In this document: piece after piece, positions 1-25,560 of the stretch
Layout of the letters: the number at the start of each line of letters is the position of its first letter
Position numbering within the stretch: the first letter of the stretch is position 1
NCBI GenBank assembly: GCA_017464805.1
Contig: JAFTYE010000015.1
Location: 1 to 56,231 of the forward strand
From: Clostridia bacterium
Lineage (GTDB): Bacteria > Bacillota > Clostridia > Oscillospirales > CAG-272
Direction: 5' to 3'
Length of the DNA stretch: 56,231 nucleotides
The notes under the pieces: generated by a model
Databases searched by the model: none
The model's input: only the letters and a program-made list of their open reading frames with translations
What the model was told of the DNA's origin: nothing
Program-made: the position numbers and the translations under genes

Positions 1-1
1 C

Positions 2-1042
2 GAAATTGAAGAAAGCGGCGAGAACGCCGGCTATTGGAAACCGCAGGAGACGGACGGTGATACCGTTACCGTCATCAACCATTCCAACGTGGGTTTGAAG
101 GTTTCCGTCGCCTATACTCCATCGGAATCCAACGGCGTTACCGGCAGCATTGAAAACAGCACCTTTGACGTGGCTATGCCTGTGGTCGGCTCTGACTACG
201 ACAGTGCTCCCAAAGGCTCTGCCAAGGTGGTGCTTGATAACGCATCCGTTCCCGCAAGCTGGAGCAACGAAGGCGCAACCACCATCGGCTCCGTAACCGT
301 GACGCTGGAATCCATAATCATCATCGATGCAACGAGTATCACGGGAAATGAACTGAATGGCATTCTTATGGATGTTTTGAGCAACGGCACAACAGACATT
401 TCCGTTACCCTGGCAGCAGATGCGGGAGAGGAAATGTTCACCGGCATAAGAAACGCGCTGCTTGATTCTGCGGTGGCGGACGGAAGCATCAATCTGACCC
501 TTACCGGCGTTAAATGGATTCCGTACTCTGCATTCGAGGAAGTTAAAGAACTAAAGAGTGTCAGTCTTCCCGACGCAGAAGTAATTGATTCAAGTTCCTT
601 CTACGGATGTTCTTATCTACAGGTCATTAACCTTCCGAAGGCTGTTACGATTTATGCTGATGCCTTCTATCAATGTGACCTTCGCTCAGTTGTGTTGCCC
701 GAAGTAACAAAGCTAGGTGCGAGAGCCTTTGAGAGCAATGTGAATCTGACCGAATTTTCTGCCCCCAAAGCAACAGCGGTTTACTTGGGTCACTCCTCTG
801 ATAGTACCTGGAAAAACTGCACCAGTCTGAAAACCTTGGTTCTTTCTGCAGCAGGGCTTAAATTATATGATACATATCAAGGCGATCTGACAACAACAAA
901 TATAAACCTGACGCTGAACAGTGACCAGAAGGATAACGTGACAGTCCATGCCGATGGTACAGCAACGTGGACTACGACAAGCGCATCTACTGGCAACCCT
1001 GTCTTGAGTTATACCTTCAATTCCATCACATTTGCAGACTAA
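2..1042 (+). CDS. Secreted WxSMEF-family surface protein with leucine-rich repeats (5' truncated)
   Basis: The reading frame is open to the left edge, so the start and any signal peptide lie outside the window. The first ~100 visible residues match the second half of the domain shared by the next three proteins: a VTVINHSN segment, then an IGSVTVTLE strand. After that come about four BspA-type leucine-rich repeats (consensus like L..V.LPEVT.LGARAF). Such repeats usually serve adhesion or ligand binding at the cell surface. No sorting motif or C-terminal membrane segment is visible, so attachment may depend on partner proteins. The next gene begins 18 nt downstream with its own ribosome binding site, which suggests one operon. 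Family unnamed; function not known. Confidence 0.8.
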   Translation, partial: EIEESGENAGYWKPQETDGDTVTVINHSNVGLKVSVAYTPSESNGVTGSIENSTFDVAMPVVGSDYDSAPKGSAKVVLDNASVPASWSNEGATTIGSVTVTLESIIIIDATSITGNELNGILMDVLSNGTTDISVTLAADAGEEMFTGIRNALLDSAVADGSINLTLTGVKWIPYSAFEEVKELKSVSLPDAEVIDSSSFYGCSYLQVINLPKAVTIYADAFYQCDLRSVVLPEVTKLGARAFESNVNLTEFSAPKATAVYLGHSSDSTWKNCTSLKTLVLSAAGLKLYDTYQGDLTTTNINLTLNSDQKDNVTVHADGTATWTTTSASTGNPVLSYTFNSITFAD

Positions 1043-1060
1043 CGAAAGGAGAGAACCAAA

Positions 1061-2545
1061 ATGAAAAAACTGATTAGCTTGATTCTATCTTTGGTGCTCG
1101 TCCTTTCTATGAGCATCACTGCATTTGCCGCAGAAGCTGCCGATAACAATACTGCGGTGGTAAAAGGAAGCTATACAGCATCCGATGGCGGCATTGTTTA
1201 CTCCGTGGACGTAGCGTGGGGCAGTATGGAATTTGATTACGAGGTGCCTGCCGGTGTGTGGAATGAGCAGACCCATTCCTATGAATCCGGCGCTGCAAAG
1301 TGGACTTATGCCACGGGAGCCAATGCGGTGAAAGTGACCAACAGTTCCAATGCAGCGGTTACGGTAAATGTCACGACAAATATCCTTCTTTCCGGCATTA
1401 CGGCATCTGTTGAGGGCGGAAGCTTCACACTCGGCAGTGCGGCGGAAAATGCCACCACCGAGATAGAAGGCCAAGCAACCGACAGCACTGCTTACATCAC
1501 TCTTTCAGGTACACTGACGGACAAGACAGCCAGCAAAATGGTCATCGGTACTGTTACAGTAAGTATCAAAGATGAAACCGCAGCTGCTTTGACTGAGGAA
1601 GAAATCAATACAGCCGTTGCGGCTCTGAAAAACGGCGAAACCGTCACTCTGAGCAATGTTTCTGCAGAAAATCATGCGGCAATCGTAGCTGCTCTGGACG
1701 AAAGCAGTAATGGTGCCCTGATCAGCCGCTCCGGTGCAGGTCTTTCCACCACCTATATGCTGAAAGAGACCTTCGCAGCAGCCCTGAGTGAATGGTCAGA
1801 CGGCACAACCCTGACACTGTTGGATAACGTCACCGAACATCAGAATAACATTGAGGTTACCGACAAAAAGGTTACCCTTGATCTCAACGGAAAGACACTG
1901 GGACTGTCTTCATCGAGCAATAAGAGCATCATAGTGAACGAGAGCGTTGCCGGCAGCACCCACTTGACCATCCGAGACAGCGGCACCGGCGGTACGGTCA
2001 CTGCATATTTAATATCGTTAGATATTGAAGGTGGCACAGCTACCCTTGAAAGCGGAACCTTGAATTCCATGGTGAGATGTTTTGGCGGCACGTTCATCAT
2101 GACCGGCGGCACGGTGAATAACAGCACCAATGGAATCGAAAATTATGGTGGAACGGTATGGATCTCCGGCGGTGAAATAAGCGCAACACTTACCGGCATC
2201 TGGAATGAAGCTACTACTCATATTTCCGGCAATCCGTCCATTGCAGGCAAAGTAGCGTTGCGGAATTACGGTACTATGTTCGTGTCCGGTAATCCTACTT
2301 TTGCGGAGGGTAACAAGGCAGATTTCGAAGTTTATGCCCCCGTCACACTGAACACCCAACCTGCCGAGGGTGAGAAATGGTCGGTATCCGTTCCTAGTGA
2401 TGTGGCTGAGGACATCATCTTTGCTGTACCCGGCGAAGGCGTGACACTGGACATAGACAGATTCGAATATGTGAACTTGTATTTTTATTACTCCTATAAG
2501 CTCATAAAGAATGATGATGGCTCTCTGGCACTGGTCAAACAGTAA
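1061..2545 (+). CDS. Secreted WxSMEF-family protein with beta-helix-like repeats
   Basis: 494 residues. The N-terminal signal peptide has a Lys-Lys start, a hydrophobic core and ends AFAAE. Residues ~30-170 form the shared domain: YSVDVAWGSMEF, then W...H.Y, then KVTNSSNAAVTVNVT, closing with VIGTVTVSI. The C-terminal half has short Gly/Thr-rich repeats such as GGTFIMTGGTV and GGTVWISGGEI, resembling right-handed beta-helix or pectate-lyase-like solenoids found in adhesins and polysaccharide-binding proteins. No catalytic residues can be assigned. There is no LPXTG motif and no C-terminal membrane helix. The start follows an AAAGGAGAG ribosome binding site. It sits 18 nt after the LRR gene and 56 nt before the next paralogue. 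Export is well supported; role is inferred only. Confidence 0.8.
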   Translation: MKKLISLILSLVLVLSMSITAFAAEAADNNTAVVKGSYTASDGGIVYSVDVAWGSMEFDYEVPAGVWNEQTHSYESGAAKWTYATGANAVKVTNSSNAAVTVNVTTNILLSGITASVEGGSFTLGSAAENATTEIEGQATDSTAYITLSGTLTDKTASKMVIGTVTVSIKDETAAALTEEEINTAVAALKNGETVTLSNVSAENHAAIVAALDESSNGALISRSGAGLSTTYMLKETFAAALSEWSDGTTLTLLDNVTEHQNNIEVTDKKVTLDLNGKTLGLSSSSNKSIIVNESVAGSTHLTIRDSGTGGTVTAYLISLDIEGGTATLESGTLNSMVRCFGGTFIMTGGTVNNSTNGIENYGGTVWISGGEISATLTGIWNEATTHISGNPSIAGKVALRNYGTMFVSGNPTFAEGNKADFEVYAPVTLNTQPAEGEKWSVSVPSDVAEDIIFAVPGEGVTLDIDRFEYVNLYFYYSYKLIKNDDGSLALVKQ

Positions 2546-2601
2546 CCGATCAACCGAAATAAAAAAATAAAAATAAAACATTCCAGAAAGGAACAAAAAC
2601 T

Positions 2602-3132
2602 ATGAAGAAACTTATCACCATCCTCCTCGCCGTCGCTATGATGGCAACCCTGTCCGTTACCGCTTTTGCGGCAGAATCCGAGCTGAATAACGACAAGAAA
2701 ACCGAGACCATTGATGTCAAGGCAAAGTACACAAGCGGCGTAACCGACGCAGGCACCATTTACAGCGTGGATCTGTCCTGGGAGTCTATGGAGTTCACCT
2801 ACAGCGCATCCGGTAAGAACACCTGGAACCCCGACACCCACAAGTATGAAGTTGTTGACGAAGGCGGCGCTTGGAACCACTCCACCAGCACCATTACCGT
2901 GACCAACCACTCCAATGCAGAGGTTACCGCAAAGTTTACCTTTGCTCCCGTTGCGGGCGGCACTGTGACCGGCAGCTTCAACAACACATCCGTTGTGCTT
3001 CCTTCCGCAGAAAATAAGGCAACCGACGCTACAGAGCTGACCGGCACCTCCACCTTCACCATCGGCGGCAGCGTGGATTCCGCTCAGACCGAGTTTGCTA
3101 AGGTCGGTACCATCACCGTCACCATTGAGTAA
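2602..3132 (+). CDS. Secreted WxSMEF-family single-domain protein
   Basis: 176 residues: a signal peptide ending TAFAAE followed by one copy of the domain shared with both neighbours. Visible signature in order: TIDVKAKY right after the signal peptide, YSVDLSWESMEFTY, W-N-P-D-T-H-K-Y, ITVTNHSNAEVT, and the final strand VGTITVTIE. This looks like a small all-beta extracellular subunit. It carries no extra domain, so it may be the basic building block of the array. Start chosen at the ATG after GAAAGGA. It is followed 38 nt later by a paralogue of almost equal size and signal peptide, consistent with tandem duplication. Function unknown. Confidence 0.8.
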   Translation: MKKLITILLAVAMMATLSVTAFAAESELNNDKKTETIDVKAKYTSGVTDAGTIYSVDLSWESMEFTYSASGKNTWNPDTHKYEVVDEGGAWNHSTSTITVTNHSNAEVTAKFTFAPVAGGTVTGSFNNTSVVLPSAENKATDATELTGTSTFTIGGSVDSAQTEFAKVGTITVTIE

Positions 3133-3170
3133 GTTGATTTCAAAACCATTATAGAAAGGAACAAAGAACT

Positions 3171-3710
3171 ATGAAAAAGATTTTTGCTGTTCTTCTTGCG
3201 GCTCTTATGCTCATGAGCCTGTCCGTAACCGCTTTCGCAGCGGAGCTTCCTACAGATGCTACCGACGATCCTAAGTCTAAGGACGTTACCGCAAAATATG
3301 TTGGCGCTACCTCTGGTGGTGTTGTTTACAAGGTCGATATCGAATGGGGTTCTATGGAGTTTACATACACCGCTGCTTCTAATGGCAATTGGGATCCCGA
3401 GAGCCACACCTACACTGATGCTACCGAGGCTAAGTGGACTTACACTGAGGGCGCAAATGCGGTTAAGGTGACCAACCATTCCAACGCCGATGTTACTGTC
3501 AATATTACAAACACCAACGTGATCGAGGGCATCACCTTTACTTGGGATAAGACTTCTCTTTCACTTACTACCGCAGATAACGCAACCGCCGAGGGCGAGG
3601 CCGGTACTCCTACCACCGATACTGCAAAGCTCACCGTTTCCGGTGATTTGACAGAAACCGAGGAGAAGGTAACCATCGGTACCGTTACTCTGACTCTTAA
3701 CGAAGGCTGA
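3171..3710 (+). CDS. Secreted WxSMEF-family single-domain protein (second copy)
   Basis: 179 residues with a signal peptide (ends TAFAAE) and the same single beta-type domain as the previous gene: KDVTAKY, YKVDIEWGSMEFTY, W-D-P-E-S-H-T-Y, VKVTNHSNADVTVNIT and IGTVTLTLNEG at the C-terminus. Similarity to the previous paralogue is confined to these signature positions, so the duplication is not recent. The ribosome binding site is GAAAGGA. A strong GC-rich hairpin begins 11 nt after the stop codon and probably ends or attenuates transcription of the first four genes. Secreted; function unknown. Confidence 0.8.
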   Translation: MKKIFAVLLAALMLMSLSVTAFAAELPTDATDDPKSKDVTAKYVGATSGGVVYKVDIEWGSMEFTYTAASNGNWDPESHTYTDATEAKWTYTEGANAVKVTNHSNADVTVNITNTNVIEGITFTWDKTSLSLTTADNATAEGEAGTPTTDTAKLTVSGDLTETEEKVTIGTVTLTLNEG

Positions 3711-3720
3711 TTCTTATATG

Positions 3721-3751
3721 TCAAGGCGGGGTAAATCCTGCCCCGCCTTGA
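3721..3751 (+). terminator. Hairpin terminator or attenuator inside the surface-protein array
   Basis: Perfect 11-bp inverted repeat (TCAAGGCGGGG / CCCCGCCTTGA) with a 9-nt loop, just after the fourth secreted protein. The trailing sequence has only a weak T tract (GATTTTTGC a few bases later), so partial readthrough into the two anchor-type genes is plausible. This would make the small subunits more abundant than the anchors. Confidence 0.65.
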
Positions 3752-3817
3752 CCTCTGATTTTTGCTCACAAACTCGGTTTGCGGTCAAAAATGAGAGTTT
3801 CCAAAGGAGGTCTCGTG

Positions 3818-4330
3818 ATGAAGAAAACACAAAAAAAGAATAAATATCTGCCCCTGTATGCGGCGGTTGCAATATGCCTTGTTTCGGTGGTATCGCTGAT
3901 CGTGGTACTGTGCTTACCGGAAAAATCCGTAACGGGAGAGTTCGTTCCGCCGTCCTTTGACAGTTCCGCCGTTGCAGGCGCGCCCGATGTTCCCGATGAT
4001 CTCGGCTACAGTGAGCTGTACCGCGAGGGAATGAATTTCACCGCCTGGGTCTGCGGCAACGTGACGATGGATGGGAATACGGCAACGGTTTATCTAACCA
4101 ACCCCGAAGATAACGACGTGTGGATGAAGCTCCGCATTTTGGATGCCGAGGGCAATATCCTCGGTGAAACGGGGCTGATAAAGCCCGGTGAGTATGTGAA
4201 ATCGGTAGAATTGACAAAGACACTTGCCGTTGGCACGACCATAAAAATGAAGATCATGACCTATGAACCCGACACCTATTACAGCGCCGGCGCTGTTTCA
4301 ATGAACACCAAGATTGGAGGTGCATCGTAA
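3818..4330 (+). CDS. Membrane-anchored extracellular protein of the surface array
   Basis: 170 residues. The start is placed at the ATG following AAAGGAGGTCTCGTG, an excellent ribosome binding site; an upstream in-frame ATG at 3779 lacks one. A basic N-terminus (Lys-rich, residues 2-10) precedes one hydrophobic segment (~12-33), giving a signal-anchor with the rest outside. The outer part is beta-rich, with VTMDGNTATVYLTNPEDNDVW and ILDAEGNILGETGLIKPGEY, resembling an Ig-like fold that responds to chain extension or ligand. It stops 2 nt before the next gene, so the two are translationally linked. Family not recognised. Likely an anchor or assembly partner of the secreted paralogues, by context only. 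Confidence 0.75.
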   Translation: MKKTQKKNKYLPLYAAVAICLVSVVSLIVVLCLPEKSVTGEFVPPSFDSSAVAGAPDVPDDLGYSELYREGMNFTAWVCGNVTMDGNTATVYLTNPEDNDVWMKLRILDAEGNILGETGLIKPGEYVKSVELTKTLAVGTTIKMKIMTYEPDTYYSAGAVSMNTKIGGAS

Positions 4331-4332
4331 GA

Positions 4333-5091
4333 ATGAAAAGAATACTTACATTTGTTCTTGTTCTGCTATTGGCTTTGACCGTGAGTGTCACGGTATTTGC
4401 CGCAGAGGATAAAACCATCGACGTTATGGCAAAGTATGAGGATACATCCGAGTACACGGTGAACGTGTCGGAGGGCGGCGCGGAATACGTAGACAAGGAC
4501 GGAACAAAGGTCAGCGTGTCGGGTATCCCCGATGAAGCAAAAACGCTCGTTGTCATTCCCGTAGATGAAGCAGACACCGACGCATACGCTTGGTTTAAGG
4601 ATACGGTTCAGAATGAGAATATCGAGAACAGCATATCCCCCTACGCCGTGTATCTTTACAATGGTAACGGAGAATCCGTCAGCTCTGCGGGCGCAACCGT
4701 AACCGTTCCCGTTCCCGAAGGCTACACCGATCCCATCGTATATGCGATTGACAAGGACGGCAATCCCACAAAGCTCACGGCAGAGGTCAAGGACGGAACC
4801 ATCACGTTCACCTCGGACGGTTCATTGCACTTCGTCGTTGCCGACGAGAAGGAAACTACCCCGGGCACCGATCCAACTCCCGGAACTGATCCCACTCCCG
4901 GCACGGAGCCAAACGATCCCGACGATCCGACTCCATCGGACGATGAGCCAAGCCTCGGCTTTCTTTGGTGGCTCATTCCTTTGGGTGTCGTAACACTCGG
5001 CGGCGGTGGATTTGCAATCTATTGGTTTGTTATCAAGAAAAGAACTTGGGCAGACCTGATTGCGGTGTTTAAGAGAAAGAAGAAAGAATAA
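4333..5091 (+). CDS. Secreted surface protein with C-terminal membrane anchor
   Basis: 252 residues. It has a signal peptide (ends TVFAAE) and then TIDVMAKYE, echoing the DVxAKY motif that opens the mature WxSMEF proteins. Middle region is beta-type with no catalytic motif. Residues ~170-205 are a low-complexity linker with repeated TPGTDP units and many Asp/Pro. A hydrophobic segment follows (~212-234, starting FLWWLIPLG) with a basic tail ending KRKKKE. This is a wall-spanning stalk plus stop-transfer anchor, not an LPXTG sorting signal, because no such motif precedes the helix. It is the last gene of the array and is followed by two hairpins. It could hold the secreted subunits at the membrane; that is inference. 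Confidence 0.75.
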   Translation: MKRILTFVLVLLLALTVSVTVFAAEDKTIDVMAKYEDTSEYTVNVSEGGAEYVDKDGTKVSVSGIPDEAKTLVVIPVDEADTDAYAWFKDTVQNENIENSISPYAVYLYNGNGESVSSAGATVTVPVPEGYTDPIVYAIDKDGNPTKLTAEVKDGTITFTSDGSLHFVVADEKETTPGTDPTPGTDPTPGTEPNDPDDPTPSDDEPSLGFLWWLIPLGVVTLGGGGFAIYWFVIKKRTWADLIAVFKRKKKE

Positions 5092-5136
5092 AGAGCCTGC
5101 GACGCACAAAGTACGCACAGACCCTTACAAAAATTC

Positions 5137-5169
5137 GCGGCAGGCTACGAATAAAACGTAGCTTGCCGC
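5137..5169 (+). terminator. Hairpin after the surface-protein array
   Basis: Thirteen-base-pair stem (GCGGCAGGCTACG / CGTAGCTTGCCGC, one G-T pair) with a 7-nt loop, followed by CCTTTT. First of two stacked terminators. Confidence 0.75.
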
Positions 5170-5186
5170 CCTTTTGTTAAACCCTC

Positions 5187-5214
5187 GGACTGTGTTACGG
5201 CACAGTCCTTTTTT
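5187..5214 (+). terminator. Intrinsic terminator
   Basis: Perfect 8-bp stem GGACTGTG / CACAGTCC with a 6-nt loop followed directly by six T residues: a classic rho-independent terminator. It isolates the surface array from the tRNA genes. Confidence 0.85.
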
Positions 5215-5357
5215 ATACCGTTTTTACGGACGAAAAAGAACATTCCCTCACTCTACTCGTTAAATTGTTTACAAATGTTTTTTTGAAAATAACGAAAAAA
5301 GGGGAGACCCGGCGACTGAAAAATCGCAAAATCTCCCCTGAAAAGTCGATTATTTAA

Positions 5358-5372
5358 GTTCAAATCCCACCC
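5358..5372 (+). repeat. tRNA 3'-end-like fragment
   Basis: GTTCAAATCCCACCC is identical to the T-loop and T-stem 3' strand of the initiator tRNA gene at 5504-5518, but on the opposite strand. It stands alone, with no tRNA body around it, in the gene-free stretch between the surface array and the tRNA cluster. It may be a relic of a lost tRNA or of an attachment site; the match is short. The rest of 5215-5430 holds a hairpin GGGGAGA/TCTCCCC (5301-5338) and no gene. Confidence 0.4.
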
Positions 5373-5430
5373 ACACGGCGTTTTTGGCGTTTGGCATCTA
5401 CAAAAATCACTACCTGAAAAATGGGTAGAA

Positions 5431-5464
5431 AAAAGCCCAGACGCCTTGTGACATCTGGGCTTTT
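5431..5464 (-). terminator. Terminator of the tRNA-Leu / tRNA-fMet unit
   Basis: Inverted repeat AAAAGCCCAGA / TCTGGGCTTTT, 11 bp, 12-nt loop. Read on the minus strand it follows the initiator tRNA by about 30 nt and runs into a T-rich tract. Confidence 0.8.
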
Positions 5465-5494
5465 CGTGTTGGCATCTATTTTGTCAACACAACA

Positions 5495-5572
<78 letters not shown>

Positions 5573-5578
5573 ATATAA

Positions 5579-5666
5579 TGGTGCCGGAAACCGGGATCGA
5601 ACCGGCACGAGATTAGGTCTCACGGGATTTTAAGTCCCGGGCGTCTGCCAATTCCGCCATTCCGGC
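5579..5666 (-). tRNA. tRNA-Leu (UAA)
   Basis: An 88-nt gene including CCA with the long variable arm of class II tRNAs. The anticodon loop has TAA, the acceptor stem is GCCGGAA paired with TTCCGGC, and the T loop is GTTCGATCC. It is first in a two-tRNA unit, 6 nt before the initiator tRNA. Confidence 0.95.
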
Positions 5667-5711
5667 ATGATCTCGTACAAGTGTATCTCCGTTATCTCCT
5701 TGTGCTTTATT

Positions 5712-5740
5712 AGTATAGCATTCTTTTTTTCGTTTGTCAA
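5712..5740 (-). promoter_or_regulatory. Promoter of the tRNA-Leu / tRNA-fMet unit
   Basis: Minus strand TTGACA, 17-nt spacer, TATACT: near-consensus housekeeping sigma promoter about 45 nt upstream of tRNA-Leu. Confidence 0.85.
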
Positions 5741-5887
5741 TAGGTTTTGCACTTTTTTGCGGGAGTTTTCCGACTTTTCATCGTCTTTTTTCGCTCTTTT
5801 GCGCCACACGGGCTACCCCAAAAACAAATACACGGGGACTCGTTCATATTCTTTTCATATATTGGCGTGTTTTTGTTCACATTTCTC

Positions 5888-5896
5888 TGCTATAAT
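5888..5896 (+). promoter_or_regulatory. Extended -10 promoter of the CAU tRNA
   Basis: TGCTATAAT is a perfect extended -10 element 20 nt before the tRNA. No good -35 hexamer is seen at 16-18 nt. The stretch 5741-5887 holds no gene. Confidence 0.7.
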
Positions 5897-5916
5897 AAAC
5901 TGTCAGCCAACAAAGC

Positions 5917-5993
5917 GGGCCATTAGCTCAGTTGGTTAGAGCTACCGGCTCATAACCGGTTGGTCGTAGGTTCGAGTCCTACATGGCCCACCA
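5917..5993 (+). tRNA. tRNA with CAU anticodon (elongator Met or lysidine-modified Ile2)
   Basis: A 77-nt gene with CCA encoded. Acceptor GGGCCAT/ATGGCCC, anticodon stem ACCGG/CCGGT around CTCATAA, T stem GTAGG/CCTAC all pair perfectly. G1-C72 rules out an initiator. The body (TTAGCTCAGTTGGTTAGAGC, GGTCGTAGGTTCGAGTCCTAC) resembles Firmicutes Ile2 tRNAs that read AUA after lysidine modification, but elongator tRNA-Met in Clostridia can look similar. I cannot decide from sequence alone. Confidence 0.92.
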
Positions 5994-6026
5994 AAAATCC
6001 CGAATGCGTTAGCGTTTGGGATTTTT
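5994..6026 (+). terminator. Terminator of the CAU tRNA
   Basis: AAAATCCCGAATGC pairs with GCGTTTGGGATTTT (G-T wobble allowed) and ends in a T run, directly after the CCA end. Confidence 0.8.
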
Positions 6027-6090
6027 ACTTTTTTACGCTTCACTCACCACGAAAACCGTATTCGCCCTTTTTATCTTGCTTTCTGTAAAA

Positions 6091-6123
6091 CTTGTTGACA
6101 TATCAACAAGTTTGTGGTATGAT
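6091..6123 (+). promoter_or_regulatory. Promoter with overlapping palindromic operator for the OYE/AcnX operon
   Basis: TTGACA at 6095-6100, a 17-nt spacer and TATGAT at 6118-6123. The perfect palindrome CTTGTTGACATATCAACAAG (6091-6110, 8-bp arms, 4-nt centre) covers the -35 box, which is the layout of a repressor-controlled promoter. The regulator is not identifiable here; a TetR-, MarR- or GntR-type dimer is typical for such sites. Confidence 0.8.
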
Positions 6124-6160
6124 AAGAGGGTAAATATTTCCATGCGGAAAGGATAACGGT

Positions 6161-8230
6161 ATGAATGCAATAGATAAGAAGTACGAGGCGCTTTTTACAC
6201 CCTGGAAAATCGGGAACGTAAAGATCAAAAACCGCATCGTCATGTGTCCGATGGGCGGCACGTCCCTGTTCGGCTGGTTTGAGTTGGGCGGCTGTCATTT
6301 CGACAAAGAGGCAGCGAAGCTGTTCCTCGAGCGTGCGAAAAACAATGTCGGCCTGATCATTCCCGGTATTGCGCCTCTGCGCGATACCTTCTTTGGCAAG
6401 TGGCTTTGGCAGAATCCCAAAATGTTTGAAGAGCTCAAGGAGTTTATGGATGAGATCCACAAGACGGGAGCGAAGCTGTTCGTTCAGCTGACCGCAGGCA
6501 TGGGGCGCTCTTGGGCGATCACGGAGCTGGTTGCTCCCTTGCACAAAAACAAATTCACCCGTGCGCTGATCAAGCCGATCATTGATACCTCACATGAGCT
6601 GGCAAGCCCTAGCCCCCAGCCCTCCCGCTGGGCGCACGACATCGAATGTCCCGAAATGACCGTGGAGCAGATCCACGAGATCATCGAGGCGTTTGCCAAG
6701 ACGGCAAAGCTCTGCCGCGACGCGGGCGTAGACGGCGTTGAGGTACACGCCGTGCACGAGGGTTACCTCTTGGACCAGTTTGCCATCGAATTCTTCAACA
6801 AGCGCACCGACGAATACGGCGGCAGCTTTGAAAACCGCTACCGCTTCGCCACCGAGGTCGTAGCTGCTATCAAGGAGGCATGCGGCAAGGATTATCCCGT
6901 ATCTCTGCGCTACTCGGTCGAGTCCAAGATGAAAGGTTTCTGCGAGGGCGCGATGCCGGGCGAGGAGTATACCGAGGTCGGCCGTGCCATGGAGGAATCC
7001 GAGCGAGCCGCCAGGTATCTGCAGGATGCGGGCTATGATATGCTCAACGCCGATAACGGTACCTACGATTCCTGGTACTGGGCGCATCCCCCGATGTACA
7101 TGCCAGAAAACTGTAACCTTGCGGATGTTTCGCACATCAAGCAGTTCGTGGATATCCCCGTCGTCTGCGCGGGCCGTATGGACCCCGAGGTAGGTGCACA
7201 GGCCGTTGCCGAGGGCAAGATCGATGCCGTGGGCATCGCCCGTCAGTTCCTCGTTGATCCCGCTTGGATCACCAAGCTGATCGAGGATCGGCTTGAGGAT
7301 ATTAAGCCCTGCATCTGCTGTCATGCGGGTTGTTTCAACTTCTCCTCGTCTAAGGGGCATGCCAATACGCAGGATTTGACCGACACCATGGGCCTTGCGC
7401 GCTGTGCGCTCAACCCCCGCACCATGCAGTCGAAGAAGTATCACCTGGAGCCTGCCAAACAGCCGAAGAAGATCGCCGTCATCGGTGGTGGTATCGGCGG
7501 CATGGAGGCGGCCATCGTCTGTGCCAAGAGAGGACACTCGGTCACCCTGTACGAAAAGAGCGATCGCCTTGGCGGTGTGTTCGTGGCGGCGGCCGCCCCC
7601 TCCTTCAAGGAAAAGGATCGTGCCCTGATCGCGTGGTATATCCGCGAGCTTGCCAAGCATCCCGTTGAGGTCAAGATGAACACTGAGGTCAAGGACATCG
7701 CCACCCTCGATGCCGACGAGATCATCGTGGCAACGGGTGCGGTCGCCAAGCGCATCCCCGTGAAGGGCGCGGACACCGCGGTCGAGGCCATCGACTTTTT
7801 GCTCGGCAACAAGGAGGTCGGCGAGAACGTCACTGTCATCGGCGGCGGCCTGACGGGTTGTGAGATTGCTTACGAGCTGTATTTGCAGGGCAAAAAGCCC
7901 ACCATCGTGGAGATGCAGGACGACCTCATCACGACCAAGGGCATCTGCCTTGCCAACACCAGCTACCTGCGCGATTTCTTCAAGACCAACAAGATCCCCG
8001 TCTACCTAGAAACGGGTGTTTCGGAGATAAAAGAAGGAAGCGTGACCCTGTGCGACAAGGAAGGGAGGACCTTTGCGGTCGAGGCCGACTCGGTCATTCT
8101 GTCGGTCGGTTATAACCCCGCCCCTGTTGCGAAAAAGGGCAAGCATGTCCATGTCATTGGTGACGCCGCCAAGGTCGGCAACCTGCGCACTGTTATCTGG
8201 GGTGCGTGGGACGTATGTATGAAGCTGTAA
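6161..8230 (+). CDS. Old-yellow-enzyme family NADH:flavin oxidoreductase (2,4-dienoyl-CoA reductase / BaiCD type)
   Basis: 689 residues, cytoplasmic. Residues ~8-375 form an FMN-binding TIM barrel with the family motif TDEYGGSFENRYRF. Cysteines 384, 386 or 387, 391 and 415 fit the 4Fe-4S site that links FMN to FAD in FadH-like enzymes. Two nucleotide-binding Rossmann motifs follow: GGGIGG (442-447) for FAD and GGGLTG (561-566) for NAD(P)H. This class reduces alpha,beta-unsaturated acids, enones or CoA thioesters. It is first in an operon with both aconitase X subunits, so it may reduce the alkene made by that dehydratase. The start follows GAAAGGA. Substrate unknown; bile-acid BaiCD/BaiH and 2-enoate reductases are relatives, not proven equivalents. 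Confidence 0.9.
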   Translation: MNAIDKKYEALFTPWKIGNVKIKNRIVMCPMGGTSLFGWFELGGCHFDKEAAKLFLERAKNNVGLIIPGIAPLRDTFFGKWLWQNPKMFEELKEFMDEIHKTGAKLFVQLTAGMGRSWAITELVAPLHKNKFTRALIKPIIDTSHELASPSPQPSRWAHDIECPEMTVEQIHEIIEAFAKTAKLCRDAGVDGVEVHAVHEGYLLDQFAIEFFNKRTDEYGGSFENRYRFATEVVAAIKEACGKDYPVSLRYSVESKMKGFCEGAMPGEEYTEVGRAMEESERAARYLQDAGYDMLNADNGTYDSWYWAHPPMYMPENCNLADVSHIKQFVDIPVVCAGRMDPEVGAQAVAEGKIDAVGIARQFLVDPAWITKLIEDRLEDIKPCICCHAGCFNFSSSKGHANTQDLTDTMGLARCALNPRTMQSKKYHLEPAKQPKKIAVIGGGIGGMEAAIVCAKRGHSVTLYEKSDRLGGVFVAAAAPSFKEKDRALIAWYIRELAKHPVEVKMNTEVKDIATLDADEIIVATGAVAKRIPVKGADTAVEAIDFLLGNKEVGENVTVIGGGLTGCEIAYELYLQGKKPTIVEMQDDLITTKGICLANTSYLRDFFKTNKIPVYLETGVSEIKEGSVTLCDKEGRTFAVEADSVILSVGYNPAPVAKKGKHVHVIGDAAKVGNLRTVIWGAWDVCMKL

Positions 8231-8243
8231 GGAGGAAAATACC

Positions 8244-9521
8244 GTGATACTTACCAAAGAACAACAAGCTATTTTGGACGGTGAGAAGGGCGAGGTGCTG
8301 GCCAAGGTCATGAAGACCATGGTCATGTACGGCGATGCCTTCGGGGCAGAGAAGCTCGTGCCCATCACCTCAAAGTACAACCACCTTGTGACCTCATTCG
8401 GCCTGAAGGTCATGTCCCCTGTCTACGACCTGATGCAGACTCTCCTCGACGCGGGTGTGGCATCGGGACAGAAGTTCTCGGTTGACCCCAGACCCCTGGA
8501 CAAAAACGTTCCCGCGAGCTTCCTGCAGAATTTTGTGTTTAACAAATTCATGTACACCAAGCAGGATTTTTATGAAAAGCAGCTTGCCGAGCTCGGCCTT
8601 CTGGACGAAAATGCCTTCAGCTGCACCTGCTATATGGACGAAATGGGCAACAAGCCCGAGAAGGGCGAGGTGCTCTCCTGGGCGGAATCCAGTGCCGTCG
8701 TATATGCGAACTCCGTCCTCGGTGCCAGATGCAACCGCAACTCGGGCATCATCGACATCATGGGCTCCATCGTCGGCTATGTCCCCTACTTCGGTCTGCT
8801 GACCGACGAGGGCAGACGCACCACCTGGATCGTGCGCGTGAATACCACCAAAAAGCCCGAGGCACAGCTGCTCGGCTCCGCCATCGGCATGCAGGTCATG
8901 GAGGACGTTCCCTACGTCGTCGGCCTTGATAAATGGTTGGGCACGGAGCTTGACGATGCCGCCTGCTCCTACTTAAAGGACTTCGGTGCCGCCACCGCCT
9001 CCAACGGTGCGGTCGGTCTGTACCATATCGCAAATCTCACCCCCGAGGCAGTGGAGCTTGGTGAGAGCCTGATCGCCGAGGGTGCACGCGAGTACGTCAT
9101 CGACGATGCGGAGCTTGAAAGAGTACAGCGCGAATACCCCGTTATGTGGAAGAATCCCGACGCTACCCCAAAGCTCTGTTTTGTGGGTTGCCCGCACCTC
9201 TCTCTCGAGCAGCTCAAGGACTGGACGGACAAGATTGAAGCATCCCTCGCCGCAAACGGCAAAAAGAAGGTCACGGTTCCCACCGTTCTGACCGCCGCCC
9301 CGAAGGTGCTGGAGGCCTTCCGCGCTACCGAATATGCCACGCGCCTTACGGCCACAGGTGTTGTCACCTCGTACATCTGTCCTCTGATGTATATGAACAA
9401 TCCGCTTTGTAAGAAGATGCCCGTCATCACTTCGTCGAATAAGCTGCGTACCTACACCAGCGCACGCTACTACACCGACGCGGAAATTCTCTCTGCCATC
9501 ACGGGAGGTAAGAACGCATGA
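8244..9521 (+). CDS. Aconitase X catalytic (large) subunit
   Basis: 425 residues, GTG start 13 nt after the reductase, with an AAGGAGGAAAA ribosome binding site. It matches the stand-alone catalytic domain of aconitase X (formerly DUF521): SSAVVYANSVLGARCNRNSG near residues 150-170 and CFVGCPHLS near 310 are family hallmarks, and Cys residues there and in CTC (~128-130) could bind the cluster. Known members dehydrate cis-3-hydroxy-L-proline or (R)-mevalonate 5-phosphate. Neither pathway is present nearby: there is no delta-1-pyrroline-2-carboxylate reductase, proline racemase or mevalonate gene. The substrate is therefore open, probably a hydroxy acid whose alkene product feeds the neighbouring reductase. 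It overlaps the small-subunit gene by 4 nt. Confidence 0.88.
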   Translation: MILTKEQQAILDGEKGEVLAKVMKTMVMYGDAFGAEKLVPITSKYNHLVTSFGLKVMSPVYDLMQTLLDAGVASGQKFSVDPRPLDKNVPASFLQNFVFNKFMYTKQDFYEKQLAELGLLDENAFSCTCYMDEMGNKPEKGEVLSWAESSAVVYANSVLGARCNRNSGIIDIMGSIVGYVPYFGLLTDEGRRTTWIVRVNTTKKPEAQLLGSAIGMQVMEDVPYVVGLDKWLGTELDDAACSYLKDFGAATASNGAVGLYHIANLTPEAVELGESLIAEGAREYVIDDAELERVQREYPVMWKNPDATPKLCFVGCPHLSLEQLKDWTDKIEASLAANGKKKVTVPTVLTAAPKVLEAFRATEYATRLTATGVVTSYICPLMYMNNPLCKKMPVITSSNKLRTYTSARYYTDAEILSAITGGKNA

Positions 9522-9961
9522 AACTGTTCCAAGGAAGAGTCATCACCCCCGGCGAGGTAACGGCGGAGGCCGTTGTTACCACGCAGGGCTTCAATACCCT
9601 CGCATCCCTTCAAATGGCACTCCAGTTCGGCGATAAGGAGGTCAAGTGCGGCGATCAGAACAACCCCGAGCTGCACGGCAAGCCCCTGATCGGCCGTGCG
9701 CTCTGCCTGCCGCAGACCATCGGCTCTACCACGGGAGGTCTTGTGCTGTACTGTGCCTGTGCCATGAAGAAAAACCCTGCCTGTCTTCTATTTTCCGGCC
9801 CTATTGACTCGCTTGCCGCGGCAGGCGCGGTGCTGGCTGATGTGTGGGTGGACGGCGTGAGCATGCCTGTTGTCGATTCGCTCGGTGAGGAGTTCCTCTC
9901 CTATGTCAAGGATGGCATGAAGGTCACCGTCCGCGACGGTGGTATCGTGGAAGTGGAATAA
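9518..9961 (+). CDS. Aconitase X swivel (small) subunit
   Basis: 147 residues, start overlapping the large-subunit stop as ATGA. This is the DUF126 swivel domain: an N-terminal GRVITPGEVTAEA strand, a GSTTGG motif (~76-81) containing the serine that contacts substrate in characterised members, and CAMKKNPACLLFSGPIDSLAAAGA after it. Split large and small subunits are the normal bacterial arrangement. The conserved DKEVKCGDQNNPELHGK insert near residues 32-48 corresponds to the loop covering the active site. Last gene of the operon; a long hairpin follows within 10 nt. Confidence 0.88.
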   Translation: MKLFQGRVITPGEVTAEAVVTTQGFNTLASLQMALQFGDKEVKCGDQNNPELHGKPLIGRALCLPQTIGSTTGGLVLYCACAMKKNPACLLFSGPIDSLAAAGAVLADVWVDGVSMPVVDSLGEEFLSYVKDGMKVTVRDGGIVEVE

Positions 9962-25314: not shown

Positions 25315-25560
25315 GGCTTGATATGCGATGAAGCGAGAGGTTGCCGCTTTTTGGCGGGTAATTTTCGTGGAGTATGTCCGATAACCGGGCGACAGCAAGA
25401 TTTTCGGGCTCCTTTTCTTGGGGGCTGCGAACCCGTGCTTTCCCATCCGGGCTTATCTGTGCGGCAGATATTCCCCGGTTTTTGTCAGGGCGAAAAAGAA
25501 ACGCCCGGCACGGTGTGAACATGCTGAACCCCCAAGCACAAGCAAAATTTAAGAAGGAGG
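25315..25560 (+). promoter_or_regulatory. Structured leader of the S10 operon
   Basis: About 250 nt of GC-rich untranslated RNA between the promoter and rpsJ. It contains several short inverted repeats (for example GGGCGACAGCAAG and GTCAGGGCGAAAAAG segments) and no intrinsic terminator. Leaders of S10 operons in other bacteria bind L4 for feedback control; whether this one does is unknown. A reading frame open through it lacks a ribosome binding site. Confidence 0.55.

Follow-up and report, generated by a model that had tools for sequence, protein, structure and literature searches.

The window, as we call the whole stretch of DNA analyzed here (56,231 nucleotides, contig JAFTYE010000015.1 of the Clostridia bacterium assembly GCA_017464805.1), begins with a cluster of six genes, all in the same direction, that encode four secreted proteins sharing one domain (DOM), a membrane protein (ANC1) and a surface protein with a C-terminal anchor (P5). 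In relatives the usual order is a large surface protein with a C-terminal DOM, a second membrane protein (ANC2), 1-4 proteins consisting of DOM only, ANC1 and P5. We lean slightly towards the interpretation that the products of the cluster assemble non-covalently into a surface complex, perhaps a fiber, with subunits joined by strand donation. As far as can be judged from sequence, a short N-terminal beta-strand is distributed in the way expected of donor-strand assembly, with a tip that would only accept, a shaft that would both donate and accept, and a base that would only donate.

An N-terminal strand common to DOM proteins and P5

Proteins with an N-terminal DOM carry the heptamer xDVxAxY directly after the signal peptide, with alternating V, A/G and Y. 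A strand matrix was built from 30 such sequences, excluding a protein's own locus, and scores were compared with 2,000 shuffles of the approximately 45 mature N-terminal residues; signal-peptide ends were estimated with a crude hydrophobicity rule, a later start was set manually for six proteins, and the relative L060 was kept in the matrix for the window's P5. The strand was detected at p<0.05 in all 13 P5 proteins, 27/30 N-terminal-DOM proteins and two of three large proteins encoded in mid-operon, and in none of the 10 head (tip) proteins. In the third mid-operon protein, L063_6075, the heptamer GDVTASY occurs only at residue 128, behind a CBM26 starch-binding module, and in all three (L061_6684, L063_6075 and L066_7128) the strand lies in the N-terminal part and a strandless DOM at the far end, hundreds of residues apart. 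All 8 DOM matches in open frames of >800 residues begin at profile position 7-17; for frames of <330 residues, 23/30 begin at 1-5 and 7 at 13-15.

In the window, putative donor strands are IDVKAKY in DOM-only protein 1 (positions 2710-2730), KDVTAKY in DOM-only protein 2 (3279-3299) and IDVMAKY at the mature N-terminus of P5 (4417-4437, residues 29-35), and the corresponding heptamer of DOM protein 2, AVVKGSY (1154-1174), departs from the consensus. The window's P5 matches the DOM profile over its first 46 residues only, plus one insignificant stretch.

In the assembly that we propose, DOM would be a beta-sandwich with a groove that accepts a neighbor's strand. The large protein with a C-terminal DOM would form the tip and would only accept. 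The shaft, which would both donate and accept, would consist of the DOM-only proteins together with those DOM proteins that carry extra modules. P5 would be the base and would only donate; in most relatives a sortase would link it to the wall, and here it would be held in the membrane. A role as assembly chaperones or platforms is likely for ANC1 and ANC2, which would hold DOM subunits until a strand arrives. That this cluster makes a fiber, as opposed to a short complex, we infer tentatively. A multi-subunit surface complex with strand exchange had been put forward in the original prediction, which was made from the window's letters; the strand pattern speaks for the exchange, and the interpretation as a whole is partly supported. 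The prediction had missed the upstream tip protein and the second membrane protein seen in relatives.

Several observations weigh against strand donation. The seven small-frame DOM matches mentioned above begin late in the profile, as those in large frames do. The best match in the P5 of L071 lies away from the N-terminus, and that of L040 is weak. Pairwise tests within single clusters, which have low power, reached p<0.05 in 3/11 Clostridia and 6/21 Bacilli (among the latter, one gene is probably spurious). The groove and fold of DOM are features that we infer. Finally, the strand of DOM-only proteins lies, by eye, about 5-10 residues before the next strand and could pair within its own domain.

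Such pairing belongs to a reading that we consider rather unlikely, though it deserves to be taken seriously, namely that the cluster is a wall-attachment platform of the type proposed for WxL, in which DOM would bind carbohydrate or peptidoglycan and pin adhesins, the strand would be part of its own domain, and P5 would descend from a DOM protein. The gene plan is the same as that of Csc/WxL clusters, in large proteins of varied module content DOM sits at the C-terminus, and a cohesin-DOM fusion exists, all of which suits a platform. It fits less well that P5 retains, by profile, the strand and nothing more of DOM, that strand and DOM are far apart in three mid-operon proteins, that the tip DOM is strandless, and that DOM and WxL profiles show no similarity.

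Genes of the cluster and their relatives

Because the window is an entire contig, belonging to a genome of 1.76 Mb that is 91.7% complete, the cluster starts at the contig edge and gene 1 lacks its start. This gene (2-1042; this and all features given below for the window lie on the forward strand) matches the DOM profile only from profile position 48 onward (E 8e-19), and its DOM is followed by BspA-type leucine-rich repeats (LRR_5, 2.6e-15). Gene 2 (DOM protein 2, 1061-2545) encodes a signal peptide, an N-terminal DOM and a long C-terminal part, with no Pfam family above its cut-off. Genes 3 and 4, assigned by profile matches, encode DOM-only protein 1 (2602-3132; signal peptide, strand, DOM and nothing more) and DOM-only protein 2 (3171-3710). 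Compared with gene 4, the shared domain is 48% identical in gene 2 (E 3e-36) and 40% in gene 3 (E 6e-29), and these matches, together with the profile match of gene 1, bear out the predicted run of four consecutive genes with one beta-type domain. As to the extra repeats that had been predicted, those of gene 1 were recovered; the beta-helix-like repeats of gene 2 are seen by eye and have no library match. No further DOM copies were found in this genome beyond the four; a 39-residue match at E 0.18 was also listed.

ANC1 (3818-4330, with an in-frame TTG upstream at 3779) shows a single N-terminal hydrophobic segment, taken as transmembrane, followed by a conserved extracytoplasmic part, in line with the N-terminally anchored membrane protein that had been described. 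P5 (4333-5091) has a signal peptide, the strand, a region of no known family, a Pro/Thr-rich linker and a C-terminal hydrophobic anchor (4954-5034, by eye) without a TGD sorting motif. Its description as a C-terminally anchored protein starting with DVxAKY holds, the C-terminal segment being recognized by eye and in the alignment; the crude hydrophobicity rule flagged only the signal peptide of P5. No tip protein and no ANC2 were found in this genome, which counts against the proposed complex; both would sit past the contig edge.

Searches of the six window proteins in Pfam and NCBIfam found no family that names DOM or ANC1, so that a check named beforehand, whether the domain falls into a described family, left DOM unmatched in the libraries searched. 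The 38 DOM members gave five weak matches in Pfam, each in one member (FctA at 0.0026, DUF4006 and others), which we took as chance. When a DOM protein and the profile were compared with the sequences of the Protein Data Bank (PDB), matches up to E 10 were confined to profile positions 1-58, that is, signal peptide and strand. Among 22 ANC1 members the best Pfam E-value was 0.0015 (DUF5719, 2/22), below the cut-off for the window protein; this match and DUF5643 (0.017, 5/22) were likewise attributed to chance, and the best E-value of the ANC1 profile in the PDB sequences was 1.1. Three ANC2 proteins matched no Pfam family up to 0.01. ANC1 and ANC2 are homologous to each other (hhalign probability 98.1%, E 1e-13).

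In a domain-only search of 394 genomes from the same order, DOM was found in 18, representing nine families as labelled; this supersedes a first count of 144/394, which consisted mostly of signal-peptide matches. In the same 394 genomes ANC1 occurred in 19 at E<=1e-5 and in 12 at E<=1e-14, and DOM was present in 11 of the 12 genomes with strong ANC1 matches (hypergeometric 5e-16; 1e-14 without the own genome) and in 12 of the 19 at the looser limit (3e-14), which is reported alongside as the strong limit was chosen after the results were seen. Within the genus the system is rare: 2/60 genomes (own included) matched a single DOM-only protein query at E<=0.001. A phylum-wide sample (n=348) gave ANC1 matches in two genomes, the own one and, weakly, one other. 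Viral contigs yielded no confirmed relative, and in plasmids the DOM-only protein and ANC2 queries were unmatched, ANC relatives being found there with other queries.

An ANC1 query of the named collection retrieved 23 loci, with titles indicating gut metagenome-assembled genomes from roe deer, water deer, goat and sheep, other such genomes, and one Blautia. DOM was recognized by profile in 20 of the 23, P5 in 12 and ANC2 in 16. Four of the loci are source contigs of query rows, and the ANC1 of L060 shares 99% identity with that of the window; excluding these five, DOM was present in 15 of the remaining 18. The loci lacking DOM are L069 and L082, which reach contig ends, and L081, which holds an ANC1 remnant with internal stops. 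This remnant (L081:8851-9300, Ruminococcus sp. zg-924) lies directly 3' of what looks by eye like a sortase-pilus operon with three sortase-like genes (4047-8761). The predicted co-occurrence of the anchors is thus seen in other genomes, for ANC1 together with DOM and for P5 together with ANC1. A second large DOM protein is sometimes found among the DOM-only genes, and a strong hairpin often precedes ANC1. The head protein, when intact, has 354 to 2,247 residues; in L103, an unverified record from human feces that contains the entire cluster, it is a bare DOM of 170 residues without the strand.

With DOM as bait, 11 of 20 fetched stretches contained ANC1 or ANC2. The other nine, three of them at contig ends (L048, L056 and L059), lacked both, which speaks against a joint complex and for paralogous secreted adhesins acting singly, next to functionally unrelated membrane proteins. 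We find the latter improbable in view of the gene order and co-occurrence across the families of the order, Blautia, Lachnospiraceae and human-fecal records, of the common strand, and of a hairpin at the same junction.

Nine of ten large DOM proteins have a Pfam match at E<=0.001, including cohesin, CBM26, InlB-type repeats, a glycine-rich domain and GLUG. Since large DOM proteins carry leucine-rich repeats, cohesin, CBM26 and InlB-type repeats, the structure probably displays binding modules, which would probably face host or plant material. A 366-residue protein (L051:3335-4435) combines cohesin (Pfam 1.2e-6) with a C-terminal DOM, and the same combination is seen by eye in L055:9821-10756, adjoining a 1423-residue protein with, by eye, a dockerin-like end. 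Such cohesin-DOM fusions raise the possibility of a link to plant-fiber enzyme complexes.

Anchoring, hairpin and sequence mosaic

The window's P5 has no P-x-TG motif and the sortase family PF04203 was unmatched in the 91.7% complete genome, in agreement with the predicted lack of sortase and LPXTG signal. That this lack is a special state had escaped the prediction: among 12 aligned P5 proteins (window included), the C-terminus of 10 consists of TGD and a hydrophobic, basic tail, in seven of them as P-x-TG, and those of the window and L069 have plain hydrophobic tails that are alike. Sortase was found in 9 of 11 relatives, the exceptions being those of L069 and L060 (the completeness of the relatives' genomes is not given). 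It was present in 9/10 genomes with a TGD-type P5 versus 0/2 others (one-sided Fisher ~0.045, worked by hand). Because signal and sortase are absent together in the own genome and in that of L069, we read the window as having lost both jointly, with a membrane tail as the replacement. The genome of L060, which has a TGD-type P5 and no sortase match, does not fit the proposed scheme.

The TGD-type tails and the sortases of the relatives could also belong to a sortase-assembled pilus with unusual pilins. DOM-only proteins stop at the last beta-strand or a few residues beyond it, with no sorting signal, and both the own genome and that of L069 hold cluster genes and no sortase match, which makes such a pilus very improbable.

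At the junction between the DOM genes and ANC1 lies a hairpin of 14 pairs (3720-3752, -27.8 kcal/mol), which is terminator-like or may stabilize the mRNA. Hairpins of -20 kcal/mol or lower were found within 150 bases upstream of 18/28 ANC1, 3/26 ANC2 and 0/13 P5 genes, compared with 4/62 random stretches from the same loci (ANC1 vs random, Mann-Whitney 1e-6). The stem GTCAAGG...CCTTGAC is common to the window, L060, L061, L063, L066, L069 and L074, and other loci have different stems; shared ancestry thus accounts for part of the enrichment. Not every hairpin before ANC1 has a T-rich tail. In the strand-donation scheme, a hairpin ahead of ANC1 and P5 would provide for more shaft subunits than base and chaperone.

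Compared with L060, the window is 96-100% identical at 2557-3356 and 99-100% at 3754-4253, and diverges at 3457-3753 and 4354-5091, with 61-66% at 3457-3653 (the latter half of DOM-only protein 2) and <60% in P5 from 4354. An extension of the near-identity into the P5 strand was considered and rejected, as a finer alignment ends it at about the end of ANC1. The mosaic suggests exchange combined with selection on exposed parts.

Past P5, two terminator-like hairpins (5137-5208, consensus matches only) probably mark the end of the operon. They are followed by tRNA genes (5495-5993) and, at 6161-9961, by what we take to be a flavin oxidoreductase-like gene and two genes resembling the large and small parts of aconitase X. 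Further along, an S10-Clostridia ribosomal protein leader (Rfam RF03136) lies at 25319-25392, and the genes 3' of it presumably encode ribosomal proteins.

Relation to known surface systems

In Csc clusters, CscA is a DUF916-DUF3324 protein, CscB a small WxL protein, CscC a large WxL protein and CscD a small LPXTG protein (PMC1534035). The cluster resembles Csc/WxL clusters in its domain-only proteins, its large protein with a C-terminal domain, and its membrane-anchored and wall-anchored proteins (PMC1534035, PMC10599100); this plan is present in the relatives, and the large C-terminal protein was not seen in the window. The proteins themselves are unlike those of Csc clusters: DUF916 and DUF3324 were unmatched in 22 ANC1 members up to E 0.1 and in three ANC2 proteins up to 0.01, the ANC proteins are anchored N-terminally and come paired, and P5 has a long conserved region, CscD being a short peptide. 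A point of resemblance is that the window's P5 matches the small-LPXTG model NF053819 of NCBIfam below its cut-off (24 of 47 bits, best over residues 1-30). DOM as a WxL domain (PF13731) was rejected, with an hhalign probability of 0.1 and no Pfam match among the 38 DOM members; PF13731 found nothing in the own genome and was found in the Lactococcus lactis control. Two W-x-L motifs occur in 0/38 DOM rows (one in 2) and in 3/6 WxL controls (at least one in 5/6).

An AlphaFold model places a DUF916 strand in a gap of WxL (PMC10599100), and an N-terminal strand of WxL is described on a long loose linker, with a suspected rearrangement (PMC9772566); the term "donor strand" has a count of zero in both papers. 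Since these strand observations came without a donor-strand proposal, WxL clusters were tested for a shared strand in 20 stretches plus L105 and L106; the small-LPXTG model was found in 29/29 genomes of one family. The strand of small WxL proteins, SxGxVxF, was detected at p<0.05 in 9/20 small LPXTG proteins and 0/8 large proteins, with a matrix that drew on 32 of the 39 small WxL proteins and kept the locus under test; the LPXTG protein of L105 was lost in trimming and scored negative. The strand pattern thus appears to hold in part for WxL clusters, whose small LPXTG alignment was called uninformative by Siezen 2006 (PMC1534035), so that no role had been settled for these peptides at the time of their description. 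No proposal of strand donation for WxL/Csc clusters was found in the titles and abstract starts among the open-access papers listed, subscription papers and preprints being outside this scope.

ANC-type clusters also occur in Enterococcus, Melissococcus, Listeria and Ruminococcus albus, with E-values of 4e-9 (L104) and 3e-12 (L149) for the ANC profile. Like the window cluster, they hold a relative of ANC and a solo protein, together with a small LPXTG protein in all but R. albus; unlike DOM, their solo domain is not recognized by the DOM profile. Where annotated, their genes are called hypothetical, LPXTG-anchor or BspA-type leucine-rich repeat proteins. In nine clusters, mostly from Enterococcaceae, the N-terminus of the LPXTG protein resembles that of the solo protein at p<0.05 in 6/9 (combined 1.5e-8), the best case being L149 with 20 aligned residues and a score of 60, and resembles that of the large protein in 1/7 (combined 0.06). 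An automatic run was significant in 1/6, which tells against a shared strand; that run mis-trimmed proteins without a signal peptide, and in the nine-cluster repeat the starts were chosen by eye, which is why both results should be considered jointly.

Four small LPXTG-type proteins of Enterococcus and Melissococcus clusters (L159:6083-6325, L160:6070-6342, L161:6065-6334 and L166:7708-7953) have no signal peptide and a strand at the start, with in-frame stop codons just 5' of their genes. On the 985 kb Enterococcus raffinosus plasmid, an IS110-family transposase gene (L166:5549-6778) separates the ANC and solo genes. Plasmid pRUMAL01 of Ruminococcus albus 7 (L164:5836-8148) encodes three proteins annotated as hypothetical: a relative of ANC, a solo protein, and one that combines a similar N-terminal region with repeats. 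L104 (OR848117.1) and related "Listeria phage LM" records contain genes that look chromosomal by eye, and the ANC gene of L104 is 98.7% identical to that in a 2.9 Mb Listeria monocytogenes record of the plasmid collection.

Chaperone-usher pili have an acceptor-only tip, a shaft that is donor plus acceptor, and accessory proteins, and the logic proposed for the cluster is alike. In a member of the Clostridia, no outer membrane and hence no usher would be expected. Unlike in those pili, no PapD-type or usher Pfam match was found in the six window proteins and 22 ANC1 members, the genome as a whole not having been searched for an usher. As for sortase-assembled pili, their defining features were not found, DOM-only proteins lacking a sorting signal and the own genome a sortase match.

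In the TasA/TapA donor-strand fibers of Bacillus, an N-terminal strand that acts non-covalently is common to the polymerizing subunit and the initiator (PMC9674648, PMC10151520), and the N-terminus of TapA resembles the TasA donor strand (PMC9674648). The cluster is alike at the sequence level only, in that its repeating subunit and its putative base have an N-terminal strand in common. Unlike TasA and camelysin, the 38 DOM members gave no such Pfam match up to E 0.01, and unlike TasA fibers the cluster has a tip protein with adhesive modules, a base tied to wall or membrane, and paired ANC proteins.

A broader proposal, which we offer tentatively and with less confidence than that for the cluster itself, is that a monoderm counterpart of the chaperone-usher system is widespread, in which N-terminal donor strands would join the DOM, WxL and Enterococcus/Listeria solo subunits of Csc-like clusters, whose domain families are unrelated, tiny LPXTG peptides would be wall-tied donors that anchor the assembly, and ANC and DUF916 proteins would be groove-filling chaperones. 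The cluster adds several protein families that are unnamed in the libraries searched, and it illustrates how a surface structure may be built in gut Clostridia in the absence of polymerizing sortases. If strand donation is true, the small LPXTG peptides of WxL/Csc clusters would have a testable job, and donor-strand assembly would be a general rule of building Gram-positive surfaces and not a peculiarity of TasA; the principle would then be known, from the TasA/TapA donor strand (PMC9674648), and the protein families new. The closest known kind is the WxL/Csc cluster, with which the plan is shared and from which the protein families differ in being new.

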